Origin: Porphyrobacter sp.
Lineage (GTDB): Bacteria > Pseudomonadota > Alphaproteobacteria > Sphingomonadales > Sphingomonadaceae
Direction: 5' to 3'
Length of the DNA: 64,000 bases
NCBI GenBank assembly: GCA_016125555.1
Contig: WGLN01000004.1
Coordinates: 1 to 64,000 of the forward strand
The notes beneath the pieces were generated by a model, which saw only the letters and a list, made by a program, of their open reading frames with translations, did no database searches and was not told the origin of the DNA. Every line of letters begins with the position of its first letter. Within the stretch, counting starts at the first letter, position 1. Positions 1 to 8,134 of this stretch are shown in pieces. The position numbers were made by a program, and so were the translations under genes.

Positions 1-183
1 ATGTTGGTCTTGGTCATCGGGGTCTCCGTGTGGTCCGTGGTTGAAGTCGCCAAACTCCACCTCCACCATACACCTCGATGGCCACCCGGGATCACACCGT
101 CGACGGCGCTGAAATTACACCACGTGCTTGGACACTACCGTCAGTCGTCCCCGGGCACGAGCCCGGATACGAAAGGACGATTG

Positions 184-1964: not shown

Positions 1965-2344
1965 GCACGCCCAGCACCATGCGGGTGTTTATCCCGCTCA
2001 CCATCCGCAAGCGCAACGGACGGCCGAAGATCGTCCCGCCTGCGGACATGGTGCCCGACACCGGCGGGGTTGATCCGCATGTGCTGAAGGCGATCGCCAA
2101 GGCGTGGAGCTGGCGGCGGAAGCTGGAAAGCGGCACGGTGGGGACCATTCAGGACATCGCGGATGCCGAGAAGGTGACACATCCCTACGCGGGCCGACTG
2201 CTCAGGCTGGCCTATCTCGCGCCTGACGTACTTAAACGGCTGCTAATCGCACGCAACGTGCCCGCCGCCTCGCTCAAGGAACTCATCGCTGCCGCCGACC
2301 TGCCATGGTGCGAGCAGCCAGCGGCGGTGTTCGGGGCGGAATAA
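1961..2344 (+). CDS. Small HTH-like protein of the recombinase module
   Basis: This encodes a 127-aa protein of unknown function. It starts with a basic segment (IPLTIRKRNGRPKIV) and then a predicted helical region. In that region, GTIQDIADAEKVTHPYAGRL resembles the helix-turn-helix often found at the end of alphaproteobacterial recombinase operons. Its ATG overlaps the recombinase stop codon, so it is the third gene of the same coupled unit. A role as a recombination directionality or DNA-binding factor is plausible but inferred only from position and the HTH-like sequence. Confidence 0.72.
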   Translation: MSTPSTMRVFIPLTIRKRNGRPKIVPPADMVPDTGGVDPHVLKAIAKAWSWRRKLESGTVGTIQDIADAEKVTHPYAGRLLRLAYLAPDVLKRLLIARNVPAASLKELIAAADLPWCEQPAAVFGAE

Positions 2345-2484
2345 CGGCGCGCCCCGGAGCCACGCCATTTTGCGAAACCTCGTAAAAGTGGTTGTCGCTT
2401 GATACTTGCTACTGGCATGAAACAATCGGGCGAACACTGAGTGGGGCCACAGATAATGTATGCCGCGCCCTTCCAAGAGGCGAT
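2345..2484. other. Gap between recombinase module and tracrRNA
   Basis: There is no coding sequence here. It is the left part of the 289-bp gap upstream of cas9. No clear promoter or terminator was found except the strong stem at its right edge, which is assigned to the tracrRNA 3' end. Confidence 0.5.
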
Positions 2485-2597
2485 GCGGCGCCCTCGCTAT
2501 ACGAAGGCGCCGCAAGGAACCGGCCGTGTCTTTGGGATGCCGAGCCCACACGAAGAGACTTTTGCTTGCGAAAAGCAGCCCCTTCTCGTTCTGCTAG
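2485..2597 (-). ncRNA. tracrRNA of the type II-C system
   Basis: Positions 2575-2597 match the CRISPR repeat at 22 of 23 bases and form the anti-repeat. Read on the minus strand, the RNA begins with the anti-repeat (CTAGCAGAACGAGAAG...) and continues into a CTTTT/AAAAG stem-loop at about 2560-2576. It then has a GGGCTCGGCATCCC segment and ends in a 12-bp stem at 2485-2513. The pair that is T.G on the minus strand would be a C.A mismatch on the plus strand, which favours the minus orientation. From memory, the order and wording of these elements closely resemble the tracrRNA of Parvibaculum lavamentivorans. The exact 3' end is uncertain because no T-run follows the last stem. Confidence 0.85.
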
Positions 2598-2600
2598 GAT
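2592..2600 (+). promoter_or_regulatory. Candidate cas9 extended -10 inside the anti-repeat
   Basis: TGC TAGGAT (2592-2600) is a good extended -10 facing cas9, with no convincing -35. It would start a transcript near 2607, about 16 bases before the GGAGGT ribosome-binding site. It lies in the anti-repeat DNA, so it overlaps the tracrRNA 5' end. Confidence 0.4.
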
Positions 2601-2603
2601 TTC

Positions 2604-2631
2604 ATGCTAGCAATATGCGCCGGGAGGTCAA
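2604..2631 (-). promoter_or_regulatory. tracrRNA promoter
   Basis: On the minus strand, TTGACC (2626-2631) is separated by 16 bases from TAGCAT (2604-2609), which is preceded by TGC as an extended -10. A start about 7 bases further falls at about 2597, the first base of the anti-repeat. The -35 overlaps the cas9 Shine-Dalgarno sequence. This is a sequence-based prediction. Confidence 0.65.
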
Positions 2632-2633
2632 GT

Positions 2634-5600
2634 ATGGCATCAGAACTCATCTTTGGTTTCGACATCGGCACCACGTCCATCGGGTCGGCCGTCGTAAGGA
2701 TGGACAGCACTTCTGGCACTGGCGACATTGTTCATTTGGGGGTTCGCATCTTTCCTGAAGCGCGCGACCCAGACGGCGTCCCCTTGAACCAGGAACGCCG
2801 GAAGCGGCGCATGATGCGTCGCCAGTTGCGGCGGCGACGCACAAGACGGCGCGATCTCAACCAATTTCTGCACGAGGCGGGTCTGCTGCCCGAATTCAGC
2901 AAGGCGAAAGGTTCGGCGTGGGCCGAAGCTATGGCGCTGGATCCATGGCAGTTGCGAGCGAAAGCAACGAGCGAGCAACTCGGTTCTGTCGAACTTGGCC
3001 GCGCGCTCTATCACCTCGCGCAACGCCGCCATTTCCGGGGCCGCGATCTGGAAGGTTCTGCCGAAGTAGCTGATGGCAACACGGACACGGCGAGTGCCGA
3101 AGAACAGAAAGCGGCATCCCAGCGCGAGAAGGATCGCGGCGCCCTGAAGGCCTCGGGCCGCACACTTGGCGCCTTCATTGCCGCCATCCCGGAACGTGGG
3201 GAGCGGCGGCGCGGGCATCATTTTTCACGGGACGATGTCGCCGCCGAGTTCCGCGCCATCGTCGCGGCGCAGGCGTCCCATTACGCGCAGCTGCGCGATG
3301 CCGACTTCGTGTCGGCGCTTGAACAGACGATCTTCGACCAGAAGCCGGTATTCTGGCGCAAGGCCACGCTCGGGGAATGCCGCTTCGTGCCCGGCGCTGA
3401 ATTGGCCGCCTCGGCCTCCTGGGTGGCGCAGGAAAAGCGCATGCTCGAAAAGCTCAACAATCTGCGCATCGAGGAGGGCAATGGCCGCCCGCTGGACGAG
3501 CAGGAGCGCGCGGCCCTGCTCGCCCTACTGCGCACGCAGGATAGTGCGACCTGGGGTGGAATCCGCCGACACCTCAAGCTCTATTGGCGCAAGCATGATC
3601 TGCCCGAGAAGCCGACGTTCAATCTGGAACGCGGCGGCGAAAAGGGACTGGTTGGCAACCGACTGGAAAACCGGCTGGCGGCGATCATGGGCGAGCGCTG
3701 GAATGCCGATCCGGACCTGCGAGACCGGATGCGCCGTGAAATCCATGCCCGCCTCTATGCCTGCGATTATGGCCAGATCGGCAGACGCATCGTCATCCTG
3801 CGCGAGGCAAAGCGACGGGCCGAGCGCGCCGCCGAGCGTGATCGCCTCAAGGCGGATTTCGCTCTGACCGACGAACAGGCCGATTGCCTCGCCAATCTGA
3901 CCTTTGCCTCGGGCTGGGAGCCGTTCTCTGAGGATGCCCTATGGCAATTCCTGCCGCGCCTGCAAGCGGGCGCCATCTTCGGTAGCCTCCTGGCCAGCCA
4001 CGAAGAGGAAGGCTGGCGCACCACCACCTTTCCAAACCGCGTCCAGCCGACGGGCAGCTGGGTCGATCGCCTGCCCACGCCCGGCAAAAGCCGAGACGAG
4101 GTTGAGCGCCAGAAGTCCATCCGCAACCCCACCGTGCTGCGTGTGCAGAACGAATTGCGCAAGGTGGTCAACAACCTGATCGCCGTTCACGGGCGGCCCG
4201 ACCGCATCCGGGTTGAAGTGGCGCGTGAGGTGGGCAAGTCGGCCCGCGAGCGGTCCGAGGATCTGAAGCGCAACCGGGACCGTGAGAAGGAGCGCAAGAA
4301 AGCCGCAGAGGAACTCCAGAAGGGCGGCATTGCCCAGCCTACCCGTGACGATATCGAAAAGTGGCTGTTGTGGGAGGAGTGCAATCGCCAATGCCCCTAC
4401 ACCGGGAAGATGATCAGCTTTGACGCCTTGTTCAAGCACGGCGAGTTCCAGGTGGAACATATCTGGCCGCGCTGGCGCTCGCTGGATGACAGCTTCGCCA
4501 ACAAGACGCTCTGTCATCGCGACTTCAATCTGACAAAGTCCAATCGCACGCCGTTCGAGGCGTTCGAGCATGATGCCGAGGGGTGGGAAGCTGCGCTCAC
4601 GCGGGTTCGTGCCTTTGCCGGTCCGCCGGGACGTGCAGCCATCAAGGTCCGCCGTTTTGCCGCAACTGAAATCCCTGCTGACTTCGCTGCCCGCCAGCTC
4701 ACCGACACCGGCTATGCCGCGCGCCAGGCGGTGGGGTTCCTGAAAATGCTGTTCCCTGATCTTGGGCAGGCGGGTGAGGTGCGCGTAGCCACTCTGTCCG
4801 GTCGGGTCACGTCGCGGCTGCGGCACAATTGGGGCCTGAACAACATCCTTTCGGACAACGGCGAGAAGACCCGCGCTGATCATCGGCATCATGCCATCGA
4901 CGCGCTGGTGGCGGCACTCGCTCATCCCGGCTTCACGCAGCGCCTGTCGCGCTGGTTCCAGGCGCGCGATGCGGCGACGCCGCAGCCCGAGCCGCCGCTT
5001 GATCCGCCGTTCGCCGATGTGCGAGCGCAGGCGACGCGCAAGGTAGCGGACATCGTTGTGTCCCACCGCGTCCGTCGCAAGGTCTCCGGCCCCCTGCACA
5101 AGGACACCACTTATGGCGATGCCGGCCCTGCTGAGGGAAGCGGCGGCATCGCCTACCGCTGGTTCGTGACGCGAAAACCGGTGGAGGCGCTGACGAAATC
5201 GCTGCTGGCCGATGACGAGGCCTGGCCCGACACGCATGTGCACGACCGGGTCCGCGCCTGGGTCGAAGCGCATGGCGGTGATCCCAAGAAGGCCTTTGTG
5301 AACGGCTATCCCACCGTGTCCGACGGCGGCACGCCGATCCGCAAGGTGCGCATCCGCTTCAAGCAGCAGGCAAAACTGATGGCGCCCCTGAAGAACGGCT
5401 ACGCCGATCTGGGCAACAATCATCATATGGCTGTGTTCCGGCATCCTGATGGCCGGGTCGAAACCGAGATCGTCAGCTTGTTCGAAGCGGCTGACAGATT
5501 GCGCAAACACCAGCCGGTGATCCACAAGTCGCTGAACGGCGCACCACTGGTGATGTCGCTGGCACAGGGGGACACGCTGTCTTTCCCCGATGGCAAGCTA

Positions 5601-5774
5601 AAAGGGCTGTGGATCGTGCAAGGCGTGTGGTCCGCCGGCCCCATCGTGCTCTGGCGCGCCGAGGATGCCACCGGCAGTAGCGTGTTCCGCCCGACCGCTG
5701 CCTCTATCCTGAAGTCTGGCGGCCGAAAGGTGGCAGTTGATCCCATCGGCCACATCCGCCCGGCGCGCGACTGA
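2634..5774 (+). CDS. cas9: Cas9 endonuclease, type II-C
   Basis: This encodes a 1046-aa RNA-guided DNA nuclease. The start at 2634 follows GGAGGT (2623-2628). Domains in order: RuvC-I (FGFDIGTTSIGSAVV, D10), an Arg-rich bridge helix (about 50-75), the REC lobe, RuvC-II (IRVEVARE, E528), HNH (CPYTG, then EHIWPR with E608/H609 and N623 in NKTL), RuvC-III (HHAIDALVAAL, H753/D756), and a C-terminal PAM-interacting region. All catalytic positions expected by comparison with SpCas9 are present, so it should be active. The size and the lack of csn2 or cas4 indicate subtype II-C. The stop overlaps the cas1 start by one base. The PAM cannot be deduced here. Confidence 0.98.
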   Translation: MASELIFGFDIGTTSIGSAVVRMDSTSGTGDIVHLGVRIFPEARDPDGVPLNQERRKRRMMRRQLRRRRTRRRDLNQFLHEAGLLPEFSKAKGSAWAEAMALDPWQLRAKATSEQLGSVELGRALYHLAQRRHFRGRDLEGSAEVADGNTDTASAEEQKAASQREKDRGALKASGRTLGAFIAAIPERGERRRGHHFSRDDVAAEFRAIVAAQASHYAQLRDADFVSALEQTIFDQKPVFWRKATLGECRFVPGAELAASASWVAQEKRMLEKLNNLRIEEGNGRPLDEQERAALLALLRTQDSATWGGIRRHLKLYWRKHDLPEKPTFNLERGGEKGLVGNRLENRLAAIMGERWNADPDLRDRMRREIHARLYACDYGQIGRRIVILREAKRRAERAAERDRLKADFALTDEQADCLANLTFASGWEPFSEDALWQFLPRLQAGAIFGSLLASHEEEGWRTTTFPNRVQPTGSWVDRLPTPGKSRDEVERQKSIRNPTVLRVQNELRKVVNNLIAVHGRPDRIRVEVAREVGKSARERSEDLKRNRDREKERKKAAEELQKGGIAQPTRDDIEKWLLWEECNRQCPYTGKMISFDALFKHGEFQVEHIWPRWRSLDDSFANKTLCHRDFNLTKSNRTPFEAFEHDAEGWEAALTRVRAFAGPPGRAAIKVRRFAATEIPADFAARQLTDTGYAARQAVGFLKMLFPDLGQAGEVRVATLSGRVTSRLRHNWGLNNILSDNGEKTRADHRHHAIDALVAALAHPGFTQRLSRWFQARDAATPQPEPPLDPPFADVRAQATRKVADIVVSHRVRRKVSGPLHKDTTYGDAGPAEGSGGIAYRWFVTRKPVEALTKSLLADDEAWPDTHVHDRVRAWVEAHGGDPKKAFVNGYPTVSDGGTPIRKVRIRFKQQAKLMAPLKNGYADLGNNHHMAVFRHPDGRVETEIVSLFEAADRLRKHQPVIHKSLNGAPLVMSLAQGDTLSFPDGKLKGLWIVQGVWSAGPIVLWRAEDATGSSVFRPTAASILKSGGRKVAVDPIGHIRPARD

Positions 5775-6706
5775 TGCTGCGGAAGACGATCGAGATTGCC
5801 ACGCCCGGCACCCGCCTGTCGGTCTCGCACCGGCAGCTGGTGATTGAACGGCCGGAACTGCCCAAGGCGACCGTGCCGATCGAGGATCTAGGCGTACTGG
5901 TAATCGACGACGGCCGGGCCAGCCATACCCAGGCGGTGTTCATCGAATGCCTAGCCGCCGGCGCCACCGTCATCATCACCGGCCGCGATCACCTGCCGGC
6001 CGGCATGATGCTGCCGATGGACGGGCATCATGCACTCACCGAACGGCACTGGGCGCAGGTGGAGGCTGGCGCGCCTTTGCGCAAGCGACTCTGGCAGGCG
6101 CTTGTTGCGGCCAAGCTGCGCCAGCAGGGGCGCGTGTTGAAAGAGACCGGCAAGGACGACGCCGGCCTGACGGCACTTGCCGGCCGTGTCCGCTCCGGAG
6201 ACCCGGACAATCTGGAGGCACAGGGCGCGCAGCGATATTGGCCGAAACTGTTCGGCCGGAAGTTCCGCCGGGATCGCAGCGCGGACGATGCCAATGCTCT
6301 GCTCAACTATGGCTATGCCATCGTGCGCGCCGCCTGTGCCCGTGCGCTAGTGGCATCCGGCTTGATCCCCTCGCTTGGCGTCTGGCACCGCAACCGTTCC
6401 AACCCCTTCTGCCTTGCCGATGATCTGCTGGAACCCTGGCGGCCGATCGTGGACTGGAAGGTGCACGGCATCATGCAGGATGCCGAAGCGCCGAAAAACC
6501 TGGACGACCGGTCGACCCGCGCCGCCCTGCTTGCTATCTTCAACGAGACAGTGCTGCTGGCCAGCAGGCGCTGGCCGCTGCTGCTCGGCATCGAACAGTC
6601 GGCCGCCAGTCTCGCCAAGGCGCTGACGCAGAACAACCGCGACGCGCTCATCCTGCCCGAAAGCCTGCCGCTGCCGCCGGACCTGCTCGACAATGGCGCG
6701 GGCTGA
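5774..6706 (+). CDS. cas1: Cas1 spacer integrase
   Basis: This encodes a 310-aa type II Cas1, the integrase subunit that inserts protospacers at the array with Cas2. An N-terminal beta domain is followed by the helical catalytic domain. The metal-binding triad is visible as E148 in NLEAQGAQRYW, H205 in GVWHRN and E220 in DDLLEPWRP. It starts one base inside the cas9 stop (TGATG) and overlaps cas2 by 14 bases, so cas9-cas1-cas2 is one translationally coupled operon. Length is normal for type II Cas1 and no disruption is seen. Confidence 0.97.
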   Translation: MLRKTIEIATPGTRLSVSHRQLVIERPELPKATVPIEDLGVLVIDDGRASHTQAVFIECLAAGATVIITGRDHLPAGMMLPMDGHHALTERHWAQVEAGAPLRKRLWQALVAAKLRQQGRVLKETGKDDAGLTALAGRVRSGDPDNLEAQGAQRYWPKLFGRKFRRDRSADDANALLNYGYAIVRAACARALVASGLIPSLGVWHRNRSNPFCLADDLLEPWRPIVDWKVHGIMQDAEAPKNLDDRSTRAALLAIFNETVLLASRRWPLLLGIEQSAASLAKALTQNNRDALILPESLPLPPDLLDNGAG

Positions 6707-7055
6707 AGCACCATCGACCTATCCCATCCAACCCTGGGGGTGGCGCAGCATGTGGGTGATCGCCATGTTCGATCTGCCGGTGGACACCAAGGCGGCCCGC
6801 CGCGCGTATGCCCGCTTCCGCAAGGACCTGCTGGAAGACGGCTTCACCATGATGCAGTTTTCCATCTATATTCGCCACTGCGCGTCCATCGACAATGCCG
6901 AGATGCACGCCACACGCATGGGCGCCAAGGTGCCGGAAAAGGGAGAGGTGCGATTCCTGACCATCACCGACAATCAGTTCGGCCGGATCAAGGTGTATGT
7001 CGGCAAAAAGCGGGACAAGCCCGCCCCCGCGCCGTCCCAGCTTCAGCTTTTCTGA
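6693..7055 (+). CDS. cas2: Cas2 adaptation protein
   Basis: This encodes a 120-aa Cas2, the dimeric partner of Cas1 in spacer acquisition. The ferredoxin-like fold begins at MWVIAMFDLPV, where the conserved Asp follows the first strand, and continues through FRKDLLEDGFTMMQFSIYIR. A roughly 19-residue N-terminal extension precedes the domain if the ATG at 6693 is used. That start overlaps the end of cas1; an internal ATG at 6750 is the alternative. It is the last gene of the cas operon and converges on the minus-strand array transcript. Confidence 0.95.
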   Translation: MARAEAPSTYPIQPWGWRSMWVIAMFDLPVDTKAARRAYARFRKDLLEDGFTMMQFSIYIRHCASIDNAEMHATRMGAKVPEKGEVRFLTITDNQFGRIKVYVGKKRDKPAPAPSQLQLF

Positions 7056-7059
7056 ACGC

Positions 7060-7102
7060 AGAAAAGGAAAAGCCCCCGCGTTTCCAGATGGTTACGCGAG
7101 GG
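7060..7102 (-). terminator. Intrinsic terminator of the CRISPR array transcript
   Basis: On the minus strand a 9-bp stem (7094-7102 with 7073-7081, one T.G pair, 12-nt loop) is followed by the T-rich CTTTTCCTTTT tail. On the plus strand the wobble becomes a mismatch and no T-run follows. It lies 3 bp beyond the first repeat, which supports transcription of the array towards cas2. Confidence 0.75.
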
Positions 7103-7105
7103 CGG

Positions 7106-7341
7106 GTTCTAGCAGAACGAGAAAGGGCTGCAATCCGCAGCAAGTAGGTCTGCGGCTTCCTGCGCCCGAGCGTTCTAGCAGAACGAGAAAGGGCTGCAAT
7201 CCGCAGCATGGCTAAGGTGCCTCACCTTCCGCTCCGGGGTTCTAGCAGAACGAGAAAGGGCTGCAATCCGCAGCGCCCGCGCGCTGCTCTCCAGCGTCCC
7301 TTGGGGTTCTAGCAGAACGAGAAAGGGCTGCAATCCGCAGC
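7106..7341 (-). CRISPR. Type II-C CRISPR array, 4 repeats and 3 spacers
   Basis: Four identical 36-nt repeats lie at 7106-7141, 7172-7207, 7239-7274 and 7306-7341. The spacers are 7142-7171 (30 nt), 7208-7238 (31) and 7275-7305 (31). In the inferred crRNA orientation (minus strand) the repeat begins GCTGCGGATTGCAGC, a 5-bp hairpin, and ends CTGCTAGAAC. The minus orientation rests on the tracrRNA, the terminator at 7060-7102 and the embedded promoter. All repeats are perfect, with no decayed end, so the array looks young or has been reset. No AT-rich leader is visible. Spacer targets cannot be determined here. Confidence 0.97.
7306..7333 (-). promoter_or_regulatory. Repeat-embedded crRNA promoter (present in all four repeats)
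   Basis: Within each repeat, read on the minus strand, TTGCAG is followed after 16 bases by TAGAAC, preceded by TGC. Positions given are for the rightmost repeat. Spacing and extended -10 match those of the tracrRNA promoter. Starts would fall about 6-7 bases into each spacer and leave about 24 nt of guide, as known for Neisseria meningitidis type II-C. The prediction comes from sequence only. Confidence 0.55.
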
Positions 7342-7526
7342 ATATCGCTTCCCAACCGGGCTGAAGCACGGCTGGAAAGCGATCGCCGCTGAAGCGGCGG
7401 GCTCGGCAGCGAATGTGCCGCAAGGGGAGGAGAGCAGGATCCACGCCCACTTGCACCGCCGAGCATTGTCGTCACGGTACTGGCGGTTGCAGCCATCTCG
7501 CCTGCCGGGATTGGGCACAAAAGGTA

Positions 7527-7539
7527 TCGAACCCTCGAT
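7527..7539 (-). repeat. 13-bp duplicate of the tRNA-Ser T-arm
   Basis: TCGAACCCTCGAT occurs here and again inside tRNA-Ser at 7761-7773, in the same orientation and 234 bp apart. It could be a remnant attachment site of an element that used the tRNA 3' end. Thirteen bases is short, so chance or conserved T-loop wording remains possible. Confidence 0.35.
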
Positions 7540-7717
7540 CATCAAAAACGTCTGAAATCTGTCACTTTTTGGACCGGTACCGTTTAGCGCGAGGTTTCGG
7601 TGAAAAGAGACAAAAGCCCATCAGAGACCGATTTTGGCGGTTTTGGTAGTCTCTGAGGTTGCGGTGCCAGCCGCAAAACGGCGCAGAAACGTGGGATTTT
7701 TGGCCTCCCACAAGGTC

Positions 7718-7740
7718 ATCTCATTGATTCGCAATGAGAT
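7718..7740 (-). terminator. Stem-loop directly downstream of tRNA-Ser
   Basis: A perfect 9-bp stem (ATCTCATTG/CAATGAGAT, 5-nt loop) begins two bases after the tRNA CCA end on the minus strand. It is likely involved in 3' end formation. No T-run follows it, so rho-independent termination here is uncertain. Confidence 0.45.
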
Positions 7741-7742
7741 AG

Positions 7743-7833
7743 TGGCGGAGCAGGAGGGATTCGAACCCTCGATACGGTTTTGCCGTATACACACTTTCCA
7801 GGCGTGCGCCTTCGACCACTCGGCCACTGCTCC
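7743..7833 (-). tRNA. tRNA-Ser (GGA anticodon)
   Basis: Read on the minus strand, GGAGCAG (7827-7833) pairs with CTGCTCC, and G plus an encoded CCA follow. The anticodon loop reads CTGGAAA, giving anticodon GGA for UCC/UCU serine codons. A long variable arm (TATACGG...CCGTAT) identifies a class II serine tRNA, and the T-arm GGTTCGAATCC is intact. The 3' end faces the recombinase/CRISPR island, which makes it a possible integration landmark. Confidence 0.96.
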
Positions 7834-8134
7834 GTGCTCCTCGGTGCGCTGCCGCTTCGCTGCCTGAGCGCGTTTTTGCGCGCTACCGCCTCGCTGCTTG
7901 AGCGCCCGATGGGGCAAGCCCGCGCCGATAGCGGCGAACGGCGGGCTTCGCAAGGCAGTCTGCAGGGCGGAGATTGGCGGGCGCGCGCAATCGTGGTAAA
8001 AGGAAGCCACGGGAGCAGCGTTGCGCGGATCCGGCATTCCCTGTGAACGCTGCTGACCAAGAACCCCTTTCCGCCAGCCTGGGCGAGCGGAAAGGGGTTT
8101 TTGCTTGGGCTGAGAGTGTGTCACAACCCGTTCC
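7834..8134. other. Intergenic region right of tRNA-Ser
   Basis: No gene is supported in these 301 bases. An imperfect 22-base direct repeat (7851-7872 and 7884-7905) lies upstream of the tRNA on the minus strand. It is near the place where a tRNA promoter is expected. A strong plus-strand hairpin terminator lies at 8062-8102. Confidence 0.5.
8062..8102 (+). terminator. Strong intrinsic terminator, plus strand
   Basis: A perfect 13-bp stem (8062-8074 with 8087-8099, 12-nt loop) is followed by T residues to 8102. No plus-strand gene is recognised upstream of it, so it may end an unrecognised small RNA from 7834 onwards or act on read-through. Confidence 0.7.

Follow-up and report, generated by a model that had tools for sequence, protein, structure and literature searches.

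The locus described here lies in a 64,000-nucleotide (nt) stretch of Porphyrobacter sp. DNA (the window; contig WGLN01000004.1 of assembly GCA_016125555.1, positions 1 to 64,000) and is an alphaproteobacterial type II-C CRISPR (clustered regularly interspaced short palindromic repeats)-Cas9 system, with a divergent trans-activating CRISPR RNA (tracrRNA), cas9, cas1 and cas2, followed by an array on the minus strand. Comparison of this locus with its relatives makes it very likely that each repeat of the array carries its own housekeeping-sigma promoter on the CRISPR RNA (crRNA) strand, which would start a crRNA inside the adjoining spacer. The -10 element would be formed by the last six bases of the repeat following a GC (TANNNY), together with a weak -35 element at bases 9-14. 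RNA polymerase would then start about 6-7 nt into each spacer, giving a crRNA with about 24 nt of guide that would run into the next repeat, pair with the tracrRNA and be cut once by RNase III. The tracrRNA would have its own promoter, likewise of this class and located such that transcription begins at the anti-repeat, and new spacers would most likely enter at the last, cas2-proximal repeat, beside a leader resembling a site for integration host factor (IHF). We infer the start sites, the processing and the integration end from the sequence.

The array (7106-7341, minus strand) consists of four identical 36-nt repeats at 7106-7141, 7172-7207, 7239-7274 and 7306-7341, separated by three spacers of 30, 31 and 31 nt. 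The crRNA strand was taken to be the minus strand because the minus-strand anti-repeat at 2597-2567 is complementary to the minus-strand repeat. A motif scan found the promoter-like element TTGCAG-16-TAGAAC, with TGC before the -10, on the minus strand of every repeat: at 7306-7333 in repeat 1 (distal and probably the oldest), 7239-7266 in repeat 2, 7172-7199 in repeat 3 and 7106-7133 in repeat 4, the cas2-proximal copy, which would fire from the array into the leader. The final base of the hexamer is also the final base of the repeat. A preliminary description of this DNA had reported the same layout in the tracrRNA promoter (TTGACC-16-TAGCAT, 2631-2604, minus strand), and both motifs, the extended -10 (TGC) and the equal 16-bp spacing are indeed seen in the sequence. 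The pattern TTG-N16-TGNTANNNY occurs five times in the 64 kb, in the tracrRNA promoter and the four repeats only (100 shuffles: mean 0.35, maximum 3). This pattern was written post hoc and the four repeats amount to one event, so the count is weak alone and the comparative data carry the weight.

Two sets of relatives were compared. The first, from Cas9 relatives in genome collections, comprised the flanks of 60 fetched loci, the window and seven earlier loci (68 in total). Ten loci had no array near cas9, L091 duplicates the contig of L039, and L141 proved not to be a CRISPR array; once these were removed, 56 arrays remained, among whose repeats 51 were distinct. For the held-out set 40 regions were fetched and 38 used (L045 and L051 were left out), five of which had no array, leaving 33 arrays, with three two-copy repeats shifted by one base in register. 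The fetched regions were chosen by hand among the listed matches, 27 of 298, 50 of 396 and 60 of 385 genomes having matched, with some overlap. The statistical tests ignore relatedness, and the controls for leaders, stems and spacers were simple shuffles that do not keep dinucleotides. Four of the genomes (G108, G310, G343 and G342) have two separate Cas9 matches each. At locus L092 the array begins nearer to cas9 (+3806), after what appears by eye to be a cas1 coding sequence, and cas2 may be deleted.

The dinucleotide TA at bases 31-32 of the crRNA strand was present in 50 of the 51 distinct first-set repeats and in all 33 held-out repeats (82/83 pooled). The sole exception among the 51, L102, has TA one base later; its 36-mer ends in TAAGC, and the spacer would supply the sixth base of the -10. 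Base 36 is a pyrimidine in every first-set repeat (51/51) and T in every held-out repeat (33/33). A single promoter upstream of the array is the classic arrangement for types I and II-A, and under it transcription would start to the right of 7341, all crRNAs would arise by processing, and the promoter-likeness of the repeats would be a coincidence or the product of a pairing constraint. The pairing was compared with the conservation. An anti-repeat scoring at least 27 was found for 53 of the 56 first-set arrays (49 distinct repeats, the first locus being used for each). In 22 of these 49 repeats contiguous complementarity with the anti-repeat does not reach base 31, and every one of them has both the TA and the final pyrimidine; with Watson-Crick pairs only, plain extension pairs both TA bases in just one of the 22. 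Over both sets, contiguous complementarity stops short of base 31 in 32 arrays; these have 30 distinct repeats, every one with the TA. By these counts the conserved TA is not explained by contiguous pairing with the tracrRNA, a result that argues against the single promoter.

The repeats of the relatives also converge on the sigma consensus. A match of at least 9/12 to TTGACA-15..18-TATAAT, with the -10 at bases 31-36, was found in 21 of the 83 distinct repeats, compared with a mean of 0.10 and a maximum of 2 in 300 rounds of shuffling. When all registers were scanned over the 83 repeats, TATAAT scored highest at base 31 (4.02 of 6, with 2.39 for the runner-up register) and TTGACA at base 9 (3.33, with 2.66 for the runner-up), corresponding to a 16-nt spacing. 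The repeat of L174 is a perfect TTGACA-16-TATAAT (12/12) with TGC before the -10, those of L161, L162, L173 and L148 match at 11/12, and a -35 of the TTG type is present in 25 of the 51 distinct first-set repeats. This convergence in one register is, in our judgement, the strongest evidence for promoters within the repeats; it likewise counts against a single upstream promoter.

The element in the window fits the sigma factor of its own group. The Caulobacter housekeeping consensus is TTGaCg(c/g)-x11-14-GCtAxA(a/t)C (PMC5324124; this and the other papers are cited for the parts of their text covered here), against which the repeat reads TTGCAGC-x13-GCTAGAAC. Zymomonas promoters are described as TTGNNN plus TANNNN, with a spacer of mostly 17, a discriminator of mostly 6 and no conservation of T at -7 (PMC7566282). 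Compared with these, the flaws of the repeat by Escherichia coli standards, C at -7 and a poor -35, are normal for alphaproteobacteria. A 6-bp discriminator would place the start at spacer nucleotide 7, leaving about 24 nt of guide. The preliminary description had predicted crRNAs starting about 6-7 nt into the spacer, a prediction that is consistent with the sequence, with the sigma consensus of the group and with the comparative evidence.

Decay of the oldest repeat provided a further line of evidence. In type II-C arrays the oldest repeat is located at the transcription-upstream end (PMC12080349), and by this rule it is expected away from cas2 in the window and its relatives. The distal terminal repeat was mutated in 33 of 54 first-set and 12 of 21 held-out arrays, while at the opposite end the figures were 4 of 58 and 0 of 21, respectively (these counts include a few second arrays not adjoining cas2, and the distal counts omit 4 of the 58 arrays, which are truncated by a contig end). 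Over 53 unique distal ends of the first set, 140 mutations fell in bases 1-18, 12 in bases 19-30 and 4 in bases 31-36, and over the 21 held-out ends the numbers were 59, 8 and 0. Internal first-set repeats (n=1198) had 13, 14 and 19 mutations in the same blocks, 10 of the 19 at base 36, and so showed no 5' excess. The distal repeat erodes in its 5' half, and the 3' half is mostly retained; the latter would be in no mature crRNA if the starts are internal, and its retention by the oldest repeat is a further point against a single promoter. In agreement with this pattern, Feussner and colleagues reported that mutations of the oldest repeat lie mostly in the first 15 nt and noted that the promoter of the extra repeat may have to be preserved (PMC12080349). 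The distal -10 itself is broken in two first-set loci (L036 and L039). The window, with repeats that are all identical, gives no decay signal for the integration end. In L129 the first 15 bases of the distal repeat are a run of G, and its 3' part is intact.

The end of the repeat could also be conserved for another purpose, GCTANNNY being kept for recognition by Cas1-Cas2 at the leader-repeat junction and not as a promoter. The conserved end does abut the leader, and in 29 first-set loci with a leader inverted repeat of 43-50 nt a copy in the leader tracks the last four bases of the locus's own repeat, matching at 67 of 116 positions (permutations: 38.7, sd 4.9; 0 of 5000 reached the observed value, relatedness being ignored). 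This mirroring was seen with several tetramers (GGCC, TGCT, TGAC and TGAT) and, for TTCT, in one of three. On the other side, TA is found in the mirrored copy at only 4 of the 29 loci, compared with 29/29 of the repeats, and the tracking failed in the held-out set, where 13 loci (12 from other orders) gave 12 matches of 52 against 14.2 in permutations. Moreover, this end is mostly retained in the distal repeat as well, at which integration is not expected, and recognition by Cas1-Cas2 does not predict TTGACA and TATAAT at a 16-nt spacing. We consider it very unlikely that such recognition, instead of promoter function, explains the conserved end. It is conceivable, though doubtful, that in some Alphaproteobacteria the eight bases at the end of the repeat are double-coded, TA serving as the -10 and the last four bases belonging to a palindromic, IHF-centred leader of about 47 bp that mirrors them and co-varies with them. 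If so, each integration would copy a new promoter together with a docking half-site, tying acquisition to expression. Inverted repeats of about 47 nt whose outer edge mirrors the end of the repeat were observed in the leaders of L096, L101, L106, L112, L116, L128, L129, L131, L146 and others.

The preliminary description had stated that there is no visible leader, which proved incorrect: a leader-like element also present in relatives occupies 7056-7105, on the cas2 side. It contains TTCCAGATGGTTA, an IHF-like sequence of the relaxed form whose end is 11 nt from the repeat. In the crRNA direction it also has a hairpin followed by CTTTTCCTTTT, a terminator-like combination with a fold z-score of -4.3. 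The strict form CAANNNNTTR, ending 10 or 11 nt from the repeat, was found in 22 of 54 first-set leaders (0.05 in shuffles) and 13 of 33 held-out leaders, and anywhere in the distal flanks in only 1 of 50; the relaxed form was found in 37 of 54 first-set leaders including the window (0.19 in shuffles) and in 19 of 33 held-out leaders. The IHF consensus is WATCAANNNNTTR, and IHF sites have reportedly been described in some II-C leaders by Santiago-Frangos et al. in 2021. The core of the leader resembles this consensus, suggesting a putative IHF site, the window having the relaxed form only. IHF is not mentioned in the text of PMC12080349 covered here. An inverted repeat was present in 36 of 54 first-set leaders (4.3 in shuffles) and in 15 of 33 held-out leaders (2 in one shuffle), and the mean fold z-score in the crRNA direction was -3.8 for first-set leaders against -1.1 for distal flanks. 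A scan of 87 leaders for stem-loop terminators gave 18 in the crRNA direction and 5 in the opposite direction (0-1 in shuffles; 3 of 50 distal flanks); it missed the hairpin of the window leader because of its long loop. With its predicted fold and the T-rich stretch at its end, the window leader resembles a terminator for transcription running out of the array.

The flank on the other side of the array bears directly on the single promoter. A hairpin at 7344-7383 (minus strand; 15-bp outer stem, z -6.9), read in the crRNA direction, stops two bases short of repeat 1 and would tie up the guide of any RNA that came into the array from the right; hairpins beside the first repeat have been proposed to silence RNA that enters II-C arrays from upstream (PMC12080349), which speaks against such an RNA as the source of the crRNAs. 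Similar hairpins are present in the right flanks of L037 and L093 and in none of four other close loci that were folded. By eye, the close loci inspected have no block of sequence in common to the right of the array, again contrary to a shared promoter there. With the retained 3' half of the oldest repeat, the TA kept beyond pairing and the convergence on the consensus, these observations leave transcription from a single promoter right of 7341 highly improbable.

Several observations nevertheless weigh against promoters within the repeats. The minus-strand sequence GTGACA-16-GATGAT (7565-7538) is a weak promoter-like site (9/12) aimed at the array, as a single upstream promoter would be; sites of this score numbered four in the region scanned, against 1.1 expected. 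The -35 of the window matches TTGACA at only three of six positions, and in distal repeats that have decayed the -35 region is often lost. When G-U pairs are allowed, plain extension of the anti-repeat pairs both bases 31 and 32 in 11 of the 32 arrays in which contiguous complementarity stops earlier, and one of the two in 14; this caveat was discounted because the tracrRNA bases concerned coincide with the predicted start of that RNA or precede it, in the region of its predicted -10, and hence are probably not part of it. The conserved end of the repeat is also the likely integration end, and Cas1-Cas2 could constrain it. The 5' decay of distal repeats can partly be a matter of geometry, since decay eats inward and short stubs are hard to see; outside four arrays there are stubs of 10-14 nt, and the internal repeats of the held-out set (n=404) were themselves mildly 5'-biased (17, 7 and 0 mutations in the three blocks). 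Among 1235 spacers purines were not enriched at positions 6-8 (0.48, 0.49 and 0.53), and spacer composition showed no trace of a start site.

The tracrRNA (2485-2598, minus strand, predicted ends) comprises the anti-repeat at 2597-2567, a conserved scaffold and a GC-rich hairpin at 2513-2485; it has a fold z-score of -3.2 and is conserved in eight close loci. A motif scan placed its promoter, TTGACC-16-TGC-TAGCAT, at 2604-2631 (minus strand), where the -35 overlaps the Shine-Dalgarno sequence of cas9 (GGAGGTCAAG on the plus strand). This stretch, tracrRNA -35 and cas9 ribosome-binding site together, is identical in 8/8 close loci, and the -10 has the form TANCNT in the seven close loci listed. 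Since these bases are shared, expression of the tracrRNA and of cas9 may not easily change independently. Minus-strand anti-repeats scoring at least 30 were found in 48 first-set loci. Of these loci, 35 have TTGA[CT] within 45 nt upstream of the anti-repeat (shuffles 4.7, maximum 11) and 23 have TTGNNN-15..19-TANNNN, which in 17 ends 3-7 nt before the anti-repeat (the shuffles cover the shorter pattern only). In Cas9 relatives a standard promoter thus seems generally to start the tracrRNA at its anti-repeat. The preliminary description had singled out the match between the tracrRNA promoter and the repeats; with TTGA[CT] upstream of 35 of the 48 tracrRNAs, as expected for a shared sigma factor, the match is not special, and on these data the likeness comes simply from use of one and the same sigma factor and needs no further explanation.

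The similar TTG-N16-TGCTA layout of the two promoters in the window might still be taken to mean that one was copied from the other. The anti-repeat, however, is found downstream of the tracrRNA promoter and is a repeat in reverse complement, so that a promoter brought with the repeat would face cas9; the spacing (15-19 nt) and the -10 of the tracrRNA promoter vary among the relatives, and both promoters simply fit the host sigma consensus. Copying is in our opinion extremely unlikely. The anti-repeat was also considered as a promoter for cas9 (plus-strand TGC-TAGGAT, directed towards cas9) and rejected, the last base of the hexamer varying (T, G or A) in eight close loci. A promoter for cas9 was not found.

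The start of the window contains a large serine recombinase and small open reading frames, followed by the tracrRNA and the cas9-cas1-cas2 operon (2634-7055, plus strand). cas9 (2634-5774) encodes 1046 amino acids and matches NCBIfam TIGR01865 with 575.4 bits (cut-off 100). Its start was assigned to the ATG at 2634, with the Shine-Dalgarno sequence GGGAGG at 2622-2627 and ATG or GTG at the same place in eight aligned loci; the in-frame ATG at 2604 falls within the tracrRNA promoter and was rejected as a start. cas1 (5774-6706) matches the type II family TIGR03639 with 241.9 bits (cut-off 120) and cas2 (6693-7055) matches TIGR01573 with 59.9 bits (cut-off 24.5). The three genes adjoin or overlap and the array begins 50 bases past cas2, leaving no space for a further gene. 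Assignment to type II-C agrees with the compact Cas9 and type II Cas1, both above their NCBIfam cut-offs, with the nearby tracrRNA, whose anti-repeat pairs over 31-nt arms that are 87% complementary, and with the absence of csn2 and cas4 from the operon, a search made at the locus only and not in the rest of the genome. Three open reading frames upstream of the locus were scanned, the recombinase and two without an NCBIfam match. A protospacer search of viral contigs with a 20-nt stretch of one of the three spacers gave no match, and Rfam applied to 2000-8100 gave four matches with E values up to 1, none of them to a CRISPR RNA family. The recombinase (642-1964), just upstream of the CRISPR locus, is CcrB-like by NCBIfam (138.7 bits, below the cut-off of 900), and a tRNA-Ser (GGA) lies at 7743-7833, on the far side of the locus; between these flanks, the CRISPR locus is possibly an island.

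The arrangement resembles that of other type II-C systems. The repeat family and tracrRNA position of Neisseria meningitidis differ from those of the window. Its II-C system likewise has repeat-borne promoters (named in PMC3656092 and PMC10281378). Campylobacter jejuni shares the cas9-cas1-cas2 order, an extended -10 in the 3' end of the repeat and formation of the crRNA 3' end by tracrRNA and RNase III, and differential RNA sequencing located its transcription start at spacer position five, with an extended -10 at each repeat end (PMC3656092). It differs from the window in that its -10 is epsilonproteobacterial (GGTAAAAT, without a clear -35 box) and its starts were measured, whereas the GCTANNNY element of the window is alphaproteobacterial and was read from sequence. 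A promoter in each repeat and acquisition at the last repeat have been described for II-C in general (PMC12080349); repeat promoters, for which the preliminary description invoked Neisseria, are also known beyond that genus. The parts of PMC12080349 covered here do not include conservation of TA beyond pairing or the cas2-side element. The metagenomic EHCas9 system, with closest Cas9s from alphaproteobacteria, also has its tracrRNA upstream of cas9 behind a predicted promoter; its authors allow for repeat promoters, which are not analysed in the passages covered, and its array is truncated (PMC10281378).

Repeat-borne promoters in II-C are thus already published, for Campylobacter and, in 2025, for II-C in general; the window is a further case of a known phenomenon, and we do not claim the conserved TA as new to print. 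The Cas9 locus of Parvibaculum lavamentivorans presumably has a very similar repeat and tracrRNA scaffold. Promoters within repeats have been measured in Campylobacter and are also reported from Neisseria; the present analysis extends them to alphaproteobacterial Cas9 systems by comparison of relatives and not by one match to a consensus. It suggests that short arrays of these repeats would start their own guides, which bears on the use of these Cas9s as tools.

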